This document shows, in pieces, positions 8,054 through 18,300 of a DNA stretch of 64,000 nt (the first letter of the stretch is position 1; each line of letters opens with the position of its first letter). A program made the translations under genes and the position numbers. The stretch lies in the NCBI GenBank assembly GCA_002787775.1, contig PCUW01000054.1, positions 67,099-131,098 of the forward strand, written 5' to 3'. Source of the stretch: Bdellovibrionales bacterium CG12_big_fil_rev_8_21_14_0_65_38_15 (lineage in GTDB: Bacteria; Bdellovibrionota; Bacteriovoracia; Bacteriovoracales; Bacteriovoracaceae). The notes under the pieces were generated by a model. It was not told where the DNA came from. It saw only the letters and a list, made by a program, of their open reading frames with translations, and did not search any database.

Positions 8054-9339
8054 TTTCTTTCAATCCACTTATCCCAAAAAGGTTTTAAGTCTATTTCAAC
8101 GTCAAGTCGATGAAGCAGGCTATAAATTCCGCCAAGTTTTCTATGCAAAAAGATTAAGTGCTTTGGAGGTGGTGAAAATTTCGTCTCTCGAATAAAGTCC
8201 ATTGATACATTTTTTGTTAGTTCTATATAGCTTTCATCTCTAAATTTAAACACGCCATTTTCTAAAAATGGTCTTACAGAAACTTCTACCATTTTAAGGT
8301 ATGTCTCTTTCGCTTTTTCACTTTCACGTCGATCGAGAAGATCAAAATCAATTGATAGTCTAATCACTTCATTGGCGTCGCCTTTTTTTAAGGCCAAAAG
8401 CAATGATCGATATTTCTCAACAAAACCTTGCCCAAACTCCATACTCGCCCCAAAATCGAGTAGGCCCAGACGACCGTCATCTAAGACTAAAAAATTGGCG
8501 AAATTTGGATCTGTTTGCACGATATTCCATTTAAATAATTCACAACAAAATAAATCAATTGCCTTTGCTGCTAACTTTTCTTTTTCAACTTGCGTTGGTG
8601 AATTTTCAATCCACTGTGAAATTGATTTTCCAGAAAGCATCTCCATCGCAATCACTTTTGAGGAACAAAATTCTGGATAAAGAACTGGAACTCTCCACTG
8701 TTTTGAGTCTTGGGCTAAAGTTGAAAAACGAGTTAACATTTTAGCTTCTCGGACATAATCAATTTCTCGATTAAACATCTCTGAGAGTTCATCAAATACA
8801 CCTGTTAAATCAACCTTTTTACCAGTCATCGCTGTGATCAATGGAGTCAGTTTTTTAATAACAAGAAGATCTCCATCAAGAGAGTTTTCAATACCGGGAT
8901 ACTGAATTTTTAGAACAATTGATTTATTATCTTTTGTCTTAGCGCTATAGACCTGTCCAAGACTTGCGCTCGCAATAGGACTCCAATTAATTTCTAGTTC
9001 ATTTACTTTAGAACCAAGTTGATCGTTTAAAACTTTCTTCATAATATCTTGATCAATTGGAGTTGCTTGATTTTGAAGCTTTTCAAAAATTTTTCTAATT
9101 TCATCAGGTAAAATACCTGTGGTATCTAGACTAAGTAGTTGCCCAACTTTTAAGGGAAATCCTTTCAATTGATCCAAGCTTTCAACCAGCTTAGCAGCTC
9201 GCTTAAAGAGGGCTTCGTTTACTCTAGTAGAATGCTCAGTTTTATATTTTTGAGCAATTTCACCTACTGCATAGCGTCCCGCTGCAGATAGGAGTTTTGC
9301 CGAGCGAAGAAATTTACTTTTTGGAGGACTCTTGGCCAT
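8050..9339 (-). CDS. ABC1/ADCK/UbiB-family atypical protein kinase-like protein
   Basis: The 429-residue product has the family signature KVGQ (KxGQ, residues 64-67), an alanine-rich nucleotide loop ASLGQVYSA, the lysine strand VLKIQYPG, QTDPNFANF as catalytic loop and LLDFGAS as metal-binding DFG. Family members (UbiB, COQ8) are ATPases that support ubiquinone or other isoprenoid-lipid metabolism at the membrane. No C-terminal membrane pair is evident, so it may be the soluble AarF type. It is a single gene and overlaps the tsaC stop by four bases. Confidence 0.9.
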   Translation of the reverse strand: MAKSPPKSKFLRSAKLLSAAGRYAVGEIAQKYKTEHSTRVNEALFKRAAKLVESLDQLKGFPLKVGQLLSLDTTGILPDEIRKIFEKLQNQATPIDQDIMKKVLNDQLGSKVNELEINWSPIASASLGQVYSAKTKDNKSIVLKIQYPGIENSLDGDLLVIKKLTPLITAMTGKKVDLTGVFDELSEMFNREIDYVREAKMLTRFSTLAQDSKQWRVPVLYPEFCSSKVIAMEMLSGKSISQWIENSPTQVEKEKLAAKAIDLFCCELFKWNIVQTDPNFANFLVLDDGRLGLLDFGASMEFGQGFVEKYRSLLLALKKGDANEVIRLSIDFDLLDRRESEKAKETYLKMVEVSVRPFLENGVFKFRDESYIELTKNVSMDFIRETKFSPPPKHLIFLHRKLGGIYSLLHRLDVEIDLKPFWDKWIERN

Positions 9340-9409
9340 GAATTATCCTTTCACACATAAAAACAAGAGTCACCAATCGTCTAGTTCATGTTAAGATTAT
9401 GTTCTCATT

Positions 9410-10732
9410 ATGAAGAAAACTAGACTTGCAATAATAGTGGCGACTAACCCTTCCATCTGGCAGAGCTGTCGCATTATTACACCTAATATTGATGCATGTT
9501 ATCGCTCTATTGCTGATCATTCAGATGGCCTGGTTGAAATTGAATATTTTAATTATCATAACAACCAAAGTGAGCTTGATCTCATTGATCAAGTCAAAAA
9601 AACATCTGATTGGAAACCAGATATTGTTGTGTTCATGGATCATCAGCCGCATCCATTACATTTTCTAAAATATTATAAAGAACTTAATCCTAAAAAGTGT
9701 CACTTTATTTTTCATGTTTACGGCGATTTTACTCTCTTTACAGTTGATTGGGTGAGTGCTGGAAGACTTTTAAAGAAAGATCAGTGTCAGTTTATAGCAG
9801 CTTCACATAAACAAGTTGAACTCATTTCTAGTTTCACAGAAAACCCTAAAGCTGTTAATTACTGTCCGTTTCCTGTAGACGATCAACGGTTTTACTTTGA
9901 TCAATCCTTAAGGGAGAAGGCAAGAGAAGAGCTCGGAATTAAGAAAGATGATTTTGTCTTTTTGTATACAGGAAGACTTTCACCTCAAAAAAACACACTA
10001 GAAATGATTAATTTATTTGAACTAGCGTTCAAAGAAACTAAAAAACCTCCATTATTTCTTTTTGCAGGTGCTTTTGATCAGCTTGGAACTCCTTTTATTG
10101 GTAATTACTTATCAAGCAATCAATATCACTCTCATGTAAATTTAAAGCTCCATAACCTTCACGATAATCTTAAAGACAGAATTCATTATGTCGGAAGTTT
10201 AGAGCCAGAAGAATTAGTGAAGTATTACAGAGCCAGCGATACATTCATTTCTTTAAGTCTTCATAATGATGAAGACTATGGAATGTCTCCAATTGAGTCT
10301 CTTTTGTGTGGTACTAAAGCAATACTTACTGACTGGGCCGGCTATAGCTCGTTCGCTCTCAAATCAAAATACTGCGAGCTTATTTCAGTTTCAATGAAGA
10401 ATCATCGCTTAAGCTTTGATGCAGATCAATTTGTTTCAGCCTTGCATTCAGCTTTTCAAAAAGGGAAACTTAAAGAGAGTGAGCGTCAAAAAATTCATGA
10501 TCTTTACGCTAGTAAGTTTTCAATAACTTCAAATATAAAAACGATTGAAAAAATAGTCTTTAAAGGGAATAAAGTCTTTTCTGGTTTTACACCAAAATTA
10601 AAAACGATGTCGGCACTTTTTAAAAGTAATCACTATAGCCCGTTTAGCCACCCCCGAATCCCACTAGCCTACAACGCTTATTACGAGGATATCTATGCCC
10701 CTTACTATAGAAAAACTGAAAGACGAGATTAG
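9410..10732 (+). CDS. GT4-type (GT-B fold) glycosyltransferase
   Basis: The C-terminal half is a standard glycosyl transferase group 1 domain: FLYTGRLSPQKN, a PLFLFAGAF strand, IHYVGSLEPEELVKYYRASDTFISLS, and the EDYGMSPIESLLCG motif (E-x7-E) that binds the nucleotide of the sugar donor. The N-terminal half is a Rossmann-like acceptor domain. Length 440 residues is usual. It is the first gene of a coupled three-gene set; the next gene begins 38 bases before its stop. The product is probably cytoplasmic and acts on a lipid- or protein-linked acceptor, which I cannot specify. Confidence 0.85.
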   Translation: MKKTRLAIIVATNPSIWQSCRIITPNIDACYRSIADHSDGLVEIEYFNYHNNQSELDLIDQVKKTSDWKPDIVVFMDHQPHPLHFLKYYKELNPKKCHFIFHVYGDFTLFTVDWVSAGRLLKKDQCQFIAASHKQVELISSFTENPKAVNYCPFPVDDQRFYFDQSLREKAREELGIKKDDFVFLYTGRLSPQKNTLEMINLFELAFKETKKPPLFLFAGAFDQLGTPFIGNYLSSNQYHSHVNLKLHNLHDNLKDRIHYVGSLEPEELVKYYRASDTFISLSLHNDEDYGMSPIESLLCGTKAILTDWAGYSSFALKSKYCELISVSMKNHRLSFDADQFVSALHSAFQKGKLKESERQKIHDLYASKFSITSNIKTIEKIVFKGNKVFSGFTPKLKTMSALFKSNHYSPFSHPRIPLAYNAYYEDIYAPYYRKTERRD

Positions 10733-11693
10733 TTCAATCCCTAATAATCGTCTGATGGAGCAACTCTATTTAAGTGGCTTTAAAAAAACTGATTGTAATT
10801 ATTCAAACCTACATCTAACTTGGGCGACAGATCCTCTTTCTAAGGATTACTTTAGTCCACTTAATCCATGTTTCACCTATGAGCCCAAGACATTAGAACT
10901 ACTAAATACACATCCGTGTTGGCTCGTTCGAGATGGAGCACTTTCCTTACTGGATGCTCTAAATACAGAAGTGTTCCATGATCTTGAATGCCAACTCATT
11001 TTTAGAAAGGAATTGCAATTTGTCTTACCTGTAGAAAAGCAGATTAGCTCATTATATTTTGATTTGGTTTCAAATCGTCCCTACGTTAAAAATACTAAGA
11101 AAGTTCTAATGTATACTTTAATTAATGGTGCTTTTACTTCACCCGAACATTTTGAAGAGACACTCATTAAGGCAAGAGAGTTTAGAAGTGATCTTAAAGA
11201 TGAAGACTTTGTAGTCTTAATGCTGATGCGAGAAAATCAGTTTTACCAATTACCATCTGAAGAAATTCATCCCGCCTATGAGTTCACACGTATTTTAAAG
11301 CGAATCATTCCTAAAGCTACTGTTATATCGGAGAATGATTTTGATCAAATTCCTTCTTTTAATAATTGGTCTTTTTTAGAAATTCAGGAAAACTTTCTTG
11401 TTATTGGCGATAGCTACTTAAATCATTATCTTCTTTCTTTAAAAGCTCAGCCTCTTTATGAACCAAGCCAAACAAACCAATGCTTTCTTCTTAAGCAGTC
11501 ACCTAACCACTCTATTAGAATTCTTGAGCCAATATTACCCTCACATAAAACAGTCGCTCCATATGCAGAGCCCATATTGAAAGTTTTAGAAAAAAATGAA
11601 GTCAAAATTAAAACTTATTGGGCTCCTCCATACGCCCAGAAAATAACTTTTGGTTGCTTCTATGAATGGCTTAAAAAGAGATTGAATGAGTAG
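10695..11693 (+). CDS. Unknown protein, translationally coupled to the glycosyltransferase
   Basis: The 332-residue product has no signal peptide or membrane segment. It overlaps the preceding glycosyltransferase gene by 38 bases and the following gene by eight, so all three are almost certainly one transcript with coupled translation. A central region (KKVLMYTLINGAFTSP..., then FVVLMLMREN and FLVIGDSYLNHYLLSLKAQPLYE) alternates beta strands and helices in a way that would suit a GT-B-like glycosyltransferase, but no donor-binding motif can be pointed out. I leave the function open. Confidence 0.65.
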   Translation: MPLTIEKLKDEISSIPNNRLMEQLYLSGFKKTDCNYSNLHLTWATDPLSKDYFSPLNPCFTYEPKTLELLNTHPCWLVRDGALSLLDALNTEVFHDLECQLIFRKELQFVLPVEKQISSLYFDLVSNRPYVKNTKKVLMYTLINGAFTSPEHFEETLIKAREFRSDLKDEDFVVLMLMRENQFYQLPSEEIHPAYEFTRILKRIIPKATVISENDFDQIPSFNNWSFLEIQENFLVIGDSYLNHYLLSLKAQPLYEPSQTNQCFLLKQSPNHSIRILEPILPSHKTVAPYAEPILKVLEKNEVKIKTYWAPPYAQKITFGCFYEWLKKRLNE

Positions 11694-12069
11694 CCCCGCT
11701 GCACTGCAATTATTATTTGATCAAGCAAGGCAAATGCTTGAAGAAAAGGGCATGATTCCTATTAAAATTATATCTGGAAGTATGGAGCCTGTTATCAAGG
11801 TTAACCAAACCGTGATTATAACCAAACTCACACGCCCCATTGCTCGCTTTGATATCATAGTGTTCAAAGGAGATAGAGAACTCATTTGCCACTACGTTAG
11901 GCACGTAAACCGCTATGTAACGGACGGAGATAACGATCTTATCCAGACGCGCGGACTAGCTTCTAAGCAAAATGATGTTCCTATCCATCAGGATCAAGTG
12001 CTTGGGATTGTTATATCGCACCGTCTCAATCTGTGGCGAAAACTGCGCTTGATGTGGGCTATTCGCTAG
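11686..12069 (+). CDS. S24/S26 signal-peptidase-like protein, small and without a membrane anchor
   Basis: The 127-residue product has the serine box ISGSMEPVIK (Ser32), the strand FDIIVFKGD, then CHYVRHV and VTDGDNDLIQTRG, and ends with QVLGIVI. These are boxes B-E of the S26 fold. Like the SipW/archaeal branch, a histidine (His69) rather than lysine stands at the general-base position. No transmembrane helix precedes the serine box, unlike true signal peptidases, so it may process a soluble substrate or be regulatory. It is the last gene of the coupled glycosyltransferase cassette and lies 43 bases before metG. Confidence 0.75.
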   Translation: MSSPAALQLLFDQARQMLEEKGMIPIKIISGSMEPVIKVNQTVIITKLTRPIARFDIIVFKGDRELICHYVRHVNRYVTDGDNDLIQTRGLASKQNDVPIHQDQVLGIVISHRLNLWRKLRLMWAIR

Positions 12070-12112
12070 GCTCGTGTTATAAATTCAAATATTTTTATCT
12101 TGGAGATGGCCC

Positions 12113-13588
12113 ATGGCCGAAAAATTCTACATCACAACCGCTATTGATTACCCAAACGGTACTCCTCATATGGGTCATGCCTATGAAAAGGTTGTCACAG
12201 ATTGCTATGCAAGATGGAATCGCTTCTTAGGTAAAGATACCTATTTTCTAACAGGTACAGATGAAAATGGTCAAAAGCTTGTTGAATCAGCAGCTAAAGC
12301 AGGCGTTAACACGAAAGAGTACGTCGATTCTCAAGTAGAGGGTTTTAAGAAACTTTGCCAGGGCCTAAATCTATCAAATGACGATTTTATTCGAACCACT
12401 GAAGATCGCCATGCCAAAGTCGCCTGCGACTTTTGGAGAAAACTTGAAGCTCAAGGCGATATTTATTTTGGGTCTTACTCGGGACAATATTGCTTAGCTT
12501 GTGAAAATTTTTACACCGAACTTCAAGCTCCTGAAGGAATTTGTCCTGATCACAAAACAAAACTAGAGCTTAAAGAAGAAGAAGGTTATTTCTTCAAAAT
12601 GTCTAAATATGAAGAATTCATTTTAGGATTTTTAAGATCGAATCCTCAATTTGTTGTTCCTAAAAATTCTTATAATGAAGTTCTAAGACGTCTAGAAGCT
12701 GAGCCCCTACGTGACCTCGCCATCTCTAGACCAAATAAAGACGCCTGGGGAATCCCTGTTCCGGGTAATGAAAAATTCATCATGTATACATGGTTTGATG
12801 CTCTCATTAATTATTACTCTGCTCTGTCTGAAGAACAGCGTGCTTATTGGCCAGCTGACGTCCATGTTATAGGCAAGGATATTATTTGGTTTCACTGCGT
12901 GATTTGGCCTTGTATGCTGAACGCCTTATCTCTTCCATTACCTAAACAAGTCTACGTTCACGGAATGATCTTAGCTGCTGATGGAAGAAAGATGTCGAAG
13001 TCTCTTGGCAACGGCGTTGATCCCTCTGATATGCTTTCGAAATATCCCGTTGATACTTTTCGCTATTACTTACTTCGAGCCATCTCGGCTCAAAGTGATG
13101 GAAGCTTCTCTGAGCAAGAACTGATTGATAAGCATAATAATGAACTTGGAAATGATTACGGAAATTTGATTATGCGTGTAGTGAAACTTTCACTTAAGCA
13201 TCTTCCAACGCAAATATCAGGTGAAGGCGTCACTAAGGCGTTTGATTTTGGCGATAGCTTTGATCGCATGAAAACATGCATGGATAAAAAAGAGCATAAC
13301 AGGGCCCTTGATATCCTTTGGGAATACGTTAATAAAGCCAATCAGTATGTAAATGACAGTGAGCCATGGAAGCTTAAAACGGATCCAGAAGCTTTAAAGC
13401 CAGTTGTTTATAACTGTCTCTACGCGATTCATGGCCTAGCTTGCTTGATCACTCCATTTTTACCGCAAACAGGACCTGCAACACTCGCTTCTTTAGGCGT
13501 AGAGGTTTCTCGTTTTGATAGTATTAAATTTGGAGAGACCACTTATAATTTAAGTGAGCCACAAGCCTTGTTTCCAAAAATACTTTAA
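12113..13588 (+). CDS. metG: Methionyl-tRNA synthetase
   Basis: Charges tRNA-Met with methionine, needed for initiation and elongation. The HIGH signature appears as HMGH (residues 19-22), the KMSKS loop as GRKMSKSLGNG near residue 293, and a zinc-knuckle-like CLACENF...CPDHK insert lies between. The WFDALINYYSAL and IIWFHCVIWPCML segments are typical. At 491 residues it lacks the C-terminal tRNA-binding dimerisation domain, as in many bacteria with the short form. TTGGAGAT gives a good ribosome binding site. Its stop abuts the convergent nuclease-like gene. Confidence 0.97.
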   Translation: MAEKFYITTAIDYPNGTPHMGHAYEKVVTDCYARWNRFLGKDTYFLTGTDENGQKLVESAAKAGVNTKEYVDSQVEGFKKLCQGLNLSNDDFIRTTEDRHAKVACDFWRKLEAQGDIYFGSYSGQYCLACENFYTELQAPEGICPDHKTKLELKEEEGYFFKMSKYEEFILGFLRSNPQFVVPKNSYNEVLRRLEAEPLRDLAISRPNKDAWGIPVPGNEKFIMYTWFDALINYYSALSEEQRAYWPADVHVIGKDIIWFHCVIWPCMLNALSLPLPKQVYVHGMILAADGRKMSKSLGNGVDPSDMLSKYPVDTFRYYLLRAISAQSDGSFSEQELIDKHNNELGNDYGNLIMRVVKLSLKHLPTQISGEGVTKAFDFGDSFDRMKTCMDKKEHNRALDILWEYVNKANQYVNDSEPWKLKTDPEALKPVVYNCLYAIHGLACLITPFLPQTGPATLASLGVEVSRFDSIKFGETTYNLSEPQALFPKIL

Positions 13589-15327: not shown

Positions 15328-18300
15328 TCAATTTTCCGATTGGGCTTCGCGTAATAATGCTTCAAATCGAGTTTTATGGATATTTTCTTGGTAACGACTG
15401 ACATTCTTACCCAACATCTTAGGAAGTAATACATATCGACCATAATACTCGATAGCCTTTTTTCCTGAAGGAGTGTCACGTAAAACTTCCCAATCAAAAT
15501 CCCCTGTATCGTAGAACAACCACTTTGTGATTCCCCACTTAGAGCGAGATTGCTTCGTTAAATACTCTTGGGCCATCTCACGGACAAAGCGCTCAGCAAA
15601 TCCTCCAGCGGTATTATCTGCTAAAATTCTTCCAGCGATGGCCTGGTCTACAGCTGCACGGTTAGTTGCTGAAGGAACACGACCAGTCACTCGAGGTAAG
15701 AATTCATTTTGCATAATAAGATCAAGAGCTGCTCTTCCTTCTCTATTATGAACATTAAATATTCTTCTAAAATCATAAGATGAAGTCATGCGATGACTTA
15801 GACTTTTAAGAGAATCATATTTAGCTTCAATTTCGCGTAACTTCGTTTTTTGATCACTTGATAAATAATTTGCATCTCGACCAGTTATCCATGCAAAGAA
15901 GCCTGAGTTACTATCTCTAACCTCTTGCCAAAAATCTGCAACTTCACGGTCGTACATTGATGATAAAAACGCTTTAAAATTCTCATCCGTATTTTTAGCA
16001 ACATGAGCAAGTGCCATATGATCAGCTAGCTGACTCTCACTAAAAAATCGTCCTAATTCTTGAAGCGGAACTGGTTGATCAGAGTCTACAACCCATTGAA
16101 GCGCGTCTTTGAGTTCTTCCTTAAAGACAGCAAGCTCTGTTTTCATACCATCCATATCAAAAACGAAGCCCTGTGAAATATACAGTCCCATACCTTCAAT
16201 GAATCGAGCGAGAGCCTGAACTGTAAACTCTGAAGTCACAATATCGGAACCTGGACCGTCGCCAGCGATAGTGCGATATTCATTTTTTGCTTGAACACTT
16301 AATAATAGTTGCGCAAGTTCAACATCAATAACCTCTTGAAGAATTTGATTTTGAACCGCACTAAGATTTGGACTTAAGCGACTAAATAAATTTGGAACAG
16401 AGGATATTAAGTAAGATCTAAATCCAGTCGCTAGAGTTTGGTTAAAGTTGTTGGCACAACCCCCTAAGTCAGTCATTAAACTATCAAACTTAGCTTCATC
16501 GACTTGACTTAGATCATCAAGATACCCATGAAGAACCGTACGATCAGATTCTTTAAAGCGTTGATCAAAGTTTTCATTAGGGAACATTAGAGAAATTAAA
16601 CTTCCTGCACCAACTAGGGAATTGCTGGCGCTAATAATGTCGTCTAAAGGCCTAGACTGGCCGACTGATGTCACAGCTGAGAATTGGGGTTTAAACCATT
16701 TTACATCTCTGTCACTGACGATGGTCTTGAGTTTATCAGAAAAACAAGCCATCTGAGAATTAAGAGCTGTCTTATCAGAGTTTGTTAAAACCGGATTATA
16801 TTTTTGTTGTAGCTTTTCAAAAAGATTGGAGGCGATATCAATCTTTGTGACTGCAGAACAAGACTTTAACCAAAGTCTATATTCTTCTACAGTCTTGTTT
16901 CCTAAAGCATCACCATCTCTATAACACTTATCAAGATAATAAAGTGGACTTAGGATTTCATTTGCTTCAATAGAAGATAATGGAAATCTTTTTGAAACAA
17001 AGTTTTTCATTTGTTGAAGAACTAATTGGAATTGTTCTTGCGCCAAAGATTCCTTGTCACAATGAATACCAAAATCTAATACGTCGGATGAAGAGTTGGC
17101 ATCATAGTCTTTCCAGCAATCTTCATATTGTTTTGAAATATCAGTAACGACTTGCTCAAATGACTCATCTTTAAAGTCATCTTTTAAGCTTGAAACAAGT
17201 TCGTACATTCTTGGTTGGATATGAGCTCGCATCACGATGTCATTAAAAGCTGTCTTGACACCATCGACACCTCTCGTTGTCAAAGCACGACGTAAATAGG
17301 CAGCACTTCCTTCAAGTAGATCATAAGTCCCTGGTTCAGTAATTGCAGCTAAATTGTCTCTAACTTCCTCATGTGCTGCAACTTCGTAAGCTGGATTTTC
17401 ACCATTCGTTGGGAGTTTAGAGTTAAGACGAGAATCAACGAAGCCAGAAAAAGCTGTTGAGTATGCCATCACTGATGCTTGTTCTACAAATTTTTTGGCA
17501 TCTGCAACGCTCTGTATTTGTGGCACAGAGTTTTGCATAAAACTTTCTACAGTTTCAATAGGCGATGTTAAATGATAGTTCGCCAGCTGGTTCTCATAAA
17601 AATGACTCGTAAGAGAAGAAATCTTTGTTTTAAAATAATCAAAGCTACAACGATATCTCCACTCATCAACACTTGTAAAATTCTGGGTTTCAATGCGTGT
17701 TAGGTTTTCACTTATACATGAATTGACTGAAATATTGTCCTGCTCATTAAAACGAACATCACCAAGACCAGAATCTCTGGCAATTGACTCAAGCATTTTT
17801 GATGGTAAGAGTGATATAGACTTTGAGATCAATTCACGCTGACAAGCTGAAAACTCAGCATCCTCTAAACAATCATCAAAATCTTTAACCAAAGCTTCCC
17901 GTTTAACATTTTGATTAACAATCGAATCATTAAACCATTTAATGTAGTTTAGCTTGTAGATTTCAGCTTTAGCTTTTTGAATTGCAACTAGCTCACAATT
18001 TTCGCTGTCGCAATCACGAAAGGTCTGGATGGCCAGTTCAGTTATTCTTGTACTTATTGGCGCAAAGGATTCATCCTGTCTTAAAAAACTTTGTTGCACT
18101 AATCCCGCTAGTTCAAGGCGAAGTGAATTCTCAATCAACCTTCCTTCACACTGTTTCAATTTTGAGTAGTCGTTAGACGCTATATACTCATCATTAAAGC
18201 TACGTTGTTCAACAGAACCAATAATAGCTCCACTTTCAATGAGACAGCTTCTAAAATCTTTTTGTTTTGTTTCATCTGAAGCGTAAGATAGATCCGCCAT

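Follow-up and report, generated by a model that had tools for sequence, protein, structure and literature searches.

The subject of this analysis is a group of three overlapping genes in a stretch of 64,000 nucleotides (the window) from Bdellovibrionales bacterium CG12_big_fil_rev_8_21_14_0_65_38_15. The window is part of contig PCUW01000054.1 (C21 in our numbering) of a 3.3-Mb genome that is divided over 68 contigs and is 92.7% complete. The first gene (9410..10732, + strand) encodes GTx, a GT4-family glycosyltransferase of 440 amino acids, assigned from its open reading frame (ORF), Pfam Glycos_transf_1 and invariant alignment columns. It is followed by the gene for P2 (10695..11693, +), a protein of 332 amino acids of no known family that was described by means of its ORF, an AlphaFold model and its conservation over 46 sequences. 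The third gene (11686..12069, +) encodes a soluble-looking, peptidase-like protein of 127 amino acids with a predicted S24/S26 fold (the S26-like protein, or S26), recognized from its ORF, Peptidase_S26 and its model. GTx and P2 overlap by 38 bases (10695..10732, +), and P2 and S26 by 8 bases (11686..11693, +), exactly as an earlier note on this DNA had given them. The letters common to the S26 start and the P2 stop are ATGAGTAG, and GAGGA is present 5 nt ahead of the P2 start. The flanking gene ubiB ends at 9339 and metG starts at 12113, so that the trio leaves no room for a further gene between them. A scan of 9250-12150 for promoters and terminators gave counts no higher than in shuffled sequences.

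In the sister genome G001 the three genes are kept in the same order, with overlaps of 32 bases (GTx/P2) and likewise 8 bases (P2/S26). Protein identity between the window and G001 is 63.9% for GTx, 52.4% for P2 and 49.6% for S26, and the differences peak at codon position 3 (0.57-0.61, against 0.29-0.45 at position 1 and 0.19-0.27 at position 2). Because order and overlaps are kept and the differences are in excess at the third codon position, the trio consists of three real, tightly packed genes; a chance overlap of spurious ORFs is ruled out by the same conservation and codon-position pattern. The closest titled locus in a scan of genome contigs, that of the metagenome-assembled genome Halobacteriovorax sp. 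SP4097 (glycosyltransferase identity 64%), also has the trio plus its neighbours, Sua5 and ubiB through metG.

The occurrence of the three proteins was followed with profile searches in a set of 97 genomes that includes the window's own. Best matches to P2 of E 5e-29 or better were found in 25 genomes, and best matches to S26 of E 6e-21 or better in exactly those 25. GTx (E<=1e-60) was present in these 25 trio genomes and in G078, where it runs off the contig. From a P2 list of 26 genomes G041 was set aside, because its match is no more than a short piece interrupted by stops (E 4e-4); eight further genomes with E 1e-13 to 7e-4 were removed from an S26 list of 33. S26 is located at most 10 kb from P2 on one contig in 20 of the 25 genomes. 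This co-occurrence is partly circular because the profiles came from GTx-linked copies. Single-sequence searches are less biased; with the window P2 they retrieved 15 of the 25 trio genomes plus G038 (E 4e-4), and with the window S26 24 of the 25 plus the marginal G007 and G013 (E 6e-4 to 9e-4).

The contig scan, carried out with the glycosyltransferase alignment, yielded 50 loci, 49 of which were counted; the archaeal locus L121, an unrelated GT4, was left out. The scan relied on two peptide patterns taken from this clade and would therefore miss relatives that do not have them. By their titles 41 of the 49 loci are of Bdellovibrionota type (Bacteriovoracaceae, Halobacteriovorax, Bdellovibrio and the like) and eight are general. 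GTx is followed by P2 on the same strand in 46 of the 49 named loci, and in the other three (L096, L113 and L116) the contig ends within or just past GTx. The two genes overlap in 40 of the 46 by a longest-ORF rule, which overstates overlap lengths in relatives. S26 was found inside the fetched stretch in 37 of the 46 GTx-P2 loci. By this strong linkage GTx, P2 and S26 constitute a conserved module that is common to many Bdellovibrio-like predatory bacteria. The statement of the earlier note that the three proteins rarely travel together is thus wrong for this clade, in which P2 and S26 share the same 25 of 97 genomes and GTx-P2 the great majority of the loci. The note had also considered that the genes might be found apart in relatives, with S26 always near metG only. 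This was not the case because the trio forms a conserved module in relatives away from metG; of the loci fetched, just those of the window and the sister genome have the trio between ubiB and metG, and S26 as a metG-linked gene was rejected.

GTx scored 63 bits (E 3e-17) against Pfam Glycos_transf_1 (PF00534), above the cut-off of 26.4. It has E288-x7-E296 (the EX7E motif) and G188-R189...K194, and its catalytic-type residues are invariant columns in an alignment of 12. Judged by these residues GTx looks catalytically intact. It is like other GT4 (Glycos_transf_1) proteins in its score far over the cut-off and its EX7E, but unlike them in being a distinct subfamily that occurs with P2.

For the window P2 no significant Pfam or NCBIfam match was found. 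Among its relatives seven Pfam families each matched one of 46 members only (E 0.009 or worse), and a profile search of PDB sequences gave an antibody as the lone match (E 0.32). P2 represents a protein family without an earlier name or description. The structure prediction that the earlier note had proposed for it was run and produced a model with pLDDT 86.3 and pTM 0.88. The top Foldseek match had E 0.035; in a second structure comparison the best match was SenB (Z 6.5, rmsd 5.5, 199 residues aligned). Of the 50 fold matches listed, all of them weak, roughly half are GT-B glycosyltransferases, among them VldE, OtsA, TarM, MshA and Asp1. According to the tool's own warning a Z under 8 can reflect a common arrangement. 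As the best Z is below this level, GT-B is a possible reading only, and P2 is perhaps, on the weak likeness of its model, a GT-B-like two-domain alpha/beta protein. Over 46 sequences D80, G81 and P112 are conserved in all 46, R79 in 44, P47 in 43, S269 in 41, and D239 and H272 in 39 each. Homology of P2 to GTx was considered and found no support (a profile comparison with the GTx alignment gave a probability of 2.5), nor did homology to the nucleotidyltransferase-like neighbour seen in relatives.

The S26-like protein is a marginal match to Peptidase_S26 (PF10502; E 9e-5), with 23.0 bits in one run and 21.4 in another at a cut-off of 22.9. With TIGR02228 (NCBIfam) it scored 41.4 bits (E 1e-10), and the equivalog cut-off of 51.85 was not reached. 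Its predicted structure (pLDDT 93.7) has the S24/S26 fold: matches in the range Z 8-9.7 were obtained with SipA (9.7), SpsB (8.9), LexA (8.9) and SEC11C (8.2) as well as UmuD, and the top Foldseek match was SEC11C (E 1.1e-3, probability 1.00). The catalytic-type pair comprises S32 (in GSMEP) and H69 (in LICHY). Replacement of Lys by His is a known variant of endoplasmic reticulum and archaeal signal peptidases. Since the LICHY stretch aligns in a profile search with the His region of SEC11A/C, the His in the Lys position, which the earlier note had described rightly, is a SEC11-type arrangement and not an oddity. The N-terminus contains a predicted helix (H4-21) with several charged residues. 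The note's description of the protein as lacking a membrane anchor holds in so far as none is obvious in the sequence or the model, no membrane predictor having been run. The protein is like S26B signal peptidase, SEC11 and SipW in its predicted fold and in a Ser/His instead of a Ser/Lys pair, but differs from S26B signal peptidase in its length of about 125 amino acids, the absence of an evident anchor, its NCBIfam scores below the cut-off and its occurrence in biosynthetic clusters.

Of the 47 S26 copies aligned, 38 retain both Ser and His. His is lost in eight, six of which have lost Ser too, and in the one other copy (L115) the alignment is gapped at the Ser position. All eight His-less copies are second copies beside an intact copy in the same locus; they are all on the - strand, at L079:18438-18839, L082:9081-9503, L087:17844-18236, L091:18215-18595, L095:19411-19803, L097:10319-10699, L103:14125-14523 and L110:13217-13642. 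To go by these residues, the intact and the His-less copy of one locus might be an active/inactive pair.

The GTx loci (ARRANGEMENTS) sort into five layouts, A to E, throughout which the GTx-P2 pair is constant and its surroundings are variable. Layout A comprises large clusters with GTx-P2, a Wzm/Wzt-like ATP-binding cassette (ABC) transporter, S26, radical SAM/SPASM, PqqD, carbamoyltransferase, DegT and further GT4s; a nucleotidyltransferase-like protein is a frequent extra, and a pilin-like fibre protein and a DsbA-like protein are occasional ones. In layout B GTx-P2 is convergent with S26 and a GT2, followed by the unknown families c10, presumably HPr-kinase-like, and c7, which we take to be a GT-C-like membrane protein; neither has a family match. 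S26 stands immediately 5' of GTx-P2 in layout C (L106, L111 and L115), and GTx-P2 is convergent with S26-Wzt-Wzm in layout E (L056, L057 and L126). The tandem GTx-P2-S26 of the window, layout D, was found in the window's genus only, and S26 in relatives is often on the opposite strand or some kb off. The three-gene order, which the earlier note had proposed to check in related genomes, is not kept as such, but the module is, with GTx-P2 in 46 of 49 loci.

The family names used for the large clusters rest on representatives. Over the 49 loci profile matches were obtained for radical SAM (24), Wzm (22), the nucleotidyltransferase-like protein (22), carbamoyltransferase (17), PqqD (16) and DegT (11). 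The exporter genes of relatives encode an ABC-2 permease and an ATPase; the sole permease checked resembles Wzm/KpsM models with scores under the cut-offs. Two of the three radical SAM proteins of L064 match the twitch-domain subfamily, one as best and one as second match; this subfamily is known from polysaccharide loci. The cluster protein A4 is read as nucleotidyltransferase-like from an RxS...SDLDLT motif (a Polbeta match was obtained in one of eight members, E 0.005). PqqD, a peptide-binding chaperone family, is present in 23 of the 25 trio genomes versus 13 of the 72 others (Fisher 4e-11). A role in anti-phage defence was rejected: in a PADLOC run with six proteins, three of the window and three of relatives, five were without a match and one radical SAM protein resembled a viperin model.

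A candidate for the substrate is a protein of about 150 amino acids with a Peptidase_S74 domain (mini-S74), which is encoded in 16 of the 49 named loci, mostly next to genes for radical SAM or PqqD proteins, and in L084 is part of a longer ORF. All four members tested matched PF13884 with 52.6-65.7 bits (cut-off 22). Ahead of the S74 domain there is a highly conserved segment whose last residues are YLDVFAGSD, and S46 and K51 are invariant in all 11 aligned sequences. S74 domains are described in PMC3742440 as cleaving themselves at Ser via a Ser-Lys dyad and as trimerizing. In nine of the 16 loci mini-S74 is within about 64 bases of a radical SAM gene on the same strand, or overlaps it. By profile matches PqqD, S74 and radical SAM follow one another directly in L092 and L094, and at L084:9182-9982 (-) a PqqD domain and the Peptidase_S74 protein are fused in one ORF. 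The mini-S74 alignment found matches somewhere in 42 of the 97 genomes. Full-length mini-S74 (183 bits or more) was restricted to 12 genomes, all of them among the 25 trio genomes (Fisher 7e-9), and the remaining matches cover chiefly the S74 domain, mostly in longer proteins. The large clusters of relatives thus combine a PqqD-type chaperone, a radical SAM maturase and a small, conserved candidate substrate. Mini-S74 is probably the substrate or precursor in these relatives, as its domain and gene neighbours suggest, and the layout resembles that of a radical SAM pathway for peptides, though the precursor is unusual. In the literature searched no description of this cluster was met, and 'peptidase S74' did not occur among the matches listed.

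We favour, with somewhat less than even confidence, the reading that the trio is the core of a Bdellovibrionota system by which a ribosomally synthesized peptide or small protein is glycosylated and trimmed. It builds on the observed gene linkage and co-occurrence, the S24/S26 fold of the model and the conserved residues; the peptide substrate, the order of the steps, a GTx-P2 complex and cleavage by S26 are what we infer. GTx and P2 would act as a two-protein glycosyltransferase in which GTx is catalytic and P2, as a GT-B-like partner, either binds the acceptor or stabilizes GTx, or else is a second enzyme. Cleavage of the modified substrate would fall to the S26-like protein, acting as a Ser/His peptidase in the cytosol. 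In relatives with large clusters the adjacent radical SAM/SPASM enzyme may modify mini-S74, with PqqD as peptide-binding chaperone, and the Wzm/Wzt-like ABC transporter would export the modified product. In the window's genus the core would have become detached from the cluster, similar parts being located elsewhere in the genome. The interpretation offered by the earlier note, a cassette for modification and processing, is partly supported: the conserved module and the PqqD, radical SAM/SPASM and candidate precursor of relatives fit a peptide, but no substrate is encoded beside the trio of the window.

Known systems offer several parallels. The large clusters are like radical SAM/PqqD pathways for ribosomally synthesized and post-translationally modified peptides (RiPPs), such as those of pyrroloquinoline quinone, mycofactocin and lasso peptides, in having PqqD, radical SAM/SPASM and an adjacent small precursor-like protein, and also in a peptidase-like protein and glycosyltransferases. 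They are unlike these in the precursor candidate ending in Peptidase_S74, the Wzm/Wzt-like export and the S26-type peptidase. Gtf1/Gtf2 (GtfA/GtfB) is described in PMC5207161 as the two-protein glycosyltransferase of serine-rich-repeat adhesins. Two co-encoded proteins are proposed there to act jointly on a polypeptide, as is suggested here for GTx and P2 by gene pairing only; no PDB chain was found to be related to P2 in sequence, and no serine-rich substrate was looked for or found. RiPP and saccharide clusters are mentioned in general terms in PMC8067016, and the main text of PMC10885120 contains no S26, S24, signal peptidase or LexA.

Several observations weigh against the glycopeptide reading. 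No peptide or exported substrate gene, of the kind that the earlier note had proposed to look for next to the trio, adjoins it in the window. Neither the window's genome nor the sister genome yielded a mini-S74, both assemblies being incomplete, and 13 of the 25 trio genomes are without the full-length protein. PqqD is missing from the trio genomes G026 and G042, and 13 genomes that lack the trio have it. S26 and P2 are on separate contigs in five of the 25 genomes (G026, G034, where P2 is truncated by the contig end, G042, G047 and G084). Nine of the 46 GTx-P2 loci have no S26 in the fetched stretch; five of these stretches are shorter than 17 kb, yet those of L076, L080, L092 and L112 are about 21 kb long. 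The P2, S26 and S74 profiles were built from copies near GTx, and the Fisher and co-occurrence tests ignore the relatedness of the genomes. The GT-B match of P2 is under the safe level of the tool and is tied, over about 100 residues, by the unrelated 2rbg (Z 6.4) and YjeQ (Z 6.1). Finally, the Wzm/Wzt-like exporter, DegT and carbamoyltransferase would also fit a surface-glycan cluster.

This last point leads to the main rival, which we consider rather unlikely, namely that what the module produces and exports is not a peptide but a surface glycan or glycolipid. GTx and P2 would then add sugar to a lipid-linked acceptor, Wzm/Wzt would export the product and the S26-like protein would regulate or mature an enzyme. 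The Wzm/KpsM-like character of the single permease checked (below cut-offs), the DegT, carbamoyltransferase and several GT4s of the clusters, the twitch-domain matches of the two L064 proteins and the lack of a substrate gene in the window are all consistent with this. The clusters of relatives are indeed like Wzm/Wzt polysaccharide export clusters in their ABC-2 permease and ATPase, several glycosyltransferases and sugar-modifying enzymes, but their PqqD, S26 and S74 proteins are not expected there. The association with PqqD, the PqqD-S74-radical SAM order and the PqqD-S74 ORF have no obvious role in a pure glycan pathway, and a conserved peptidase likewise has no obvious place in it.

It appears quite unlikely that P2 has glycosyltransferase activity of its own, as the member of a new GT-B family, and that the pair builds a disaccharide in two steps without forming one complex. 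The share of GT-B enzymes among the fold matches and the conserved D239, S269 and H272 in the second half of P2 point in this direction. However, the fold matches are weak (best Z 6.5, with 2rbg and YjeQ tying), the profile comparison with the GTx alignment speaks against it, and a position directly behind a GT4 suits a dedicated partner. It is improbable that the S26-like protein, instead of being a working peptidase, acts by binding or by cleaving itself in the manner of LexA/SipA. SipA and LexA are among its best fold matches, and each of the eight two-copy loci holds one His-less copy, six of these being Ser-less as well, but Ser and His, which a pure binding protein does not need, are kept in 38 of the 47 copies. 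The view that the overlaps reflect no more than a tight operon of the usual kind, with unrelated genes placed between ubiB and metG, is scarcely credible. In its favour, overlapping genes are common and the tandem order was seen in the window's genus only, but linkage and co-occurrence over many genera away from metG contradict it.

The glycopeptide reading can be extended to a ribosomal natural product of a new class in predatory bacteria, a scheme that, taken as one claim, we regard as unlikely. Radical SAM and sugar-transfer enzymes would modify the conserved N-terminus of about 45 residues of the precursor, whose C-terminal self-cleaving, trimerizing S74 chaperone domain would fold and release it. 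The intact S26, paired with a dead copy in some clusters, would finish processing, and the polysaccharide-type ABC exporter would display the glycopeptide; the trio of the window would be the detached core, re-used on another substrate. The linkage described here joins the P2 family and a small soluble-looking S26 subfamily in one pathway, and it draws attention to a radical SAM/PqqD cluster in relatives of the predators, in which a Peptidase_S74 protein is the candidate precursor. Should the product be a glycopeptide that is secreted or displayed on the surface, it could bear on prey recognition or killing.

Long pilin-like (N_methyl) fibre proteins (L064:1311-3722 and relatives) are encoded near the module in 13 of the 49 named loci, and in L106 and L111 directly 3' of S26-GTx-P2. 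As a general substrate the pilin-like protein was rejected, being confined to these 13 loci; no genome-wide test was made.

In the window's genome two more GTx-P2 pairs are present, on contigs C33 and C40. On C40 a single ORF of 641 amino acids (L123:6565-8490, -) combines GTx with a C-terminal part that resembles P2 weakly (E 1.4e-5, four sequences searched). Its neighbours are a Polbeta-type nucleotidyltransferase and PqqD, and a radical SAM protein is encoded about 3 kb away. A second S26 is located on C14, where it adjoins a GT4, a nucleotidyltransferase and an ABC transporter (permease below the Pfam cut-off), and the genome has three PqqD genes and five SPASM matches. Cluster-type parts thus seem to be dispersed across the genome. 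The GTx-P2 pair on C33 (L053:7317-11003, +) is divergent and is followed by a pyridoxal-dependent decarboxylase; its GTx is without the second Glu of EX7E. On C40 a protein of 1611 amino acids with a weak radical SAM match under the cut-off (L122:3116-7951, +) is encoded convergently with another GTx-P2 pair. On C58 radical SAM-like genes stand four in a row (L146:7539-12250), with a fifth nearby at 16383-17840, and they match the profile of the radical SAM proteins from the clusters of relatives.

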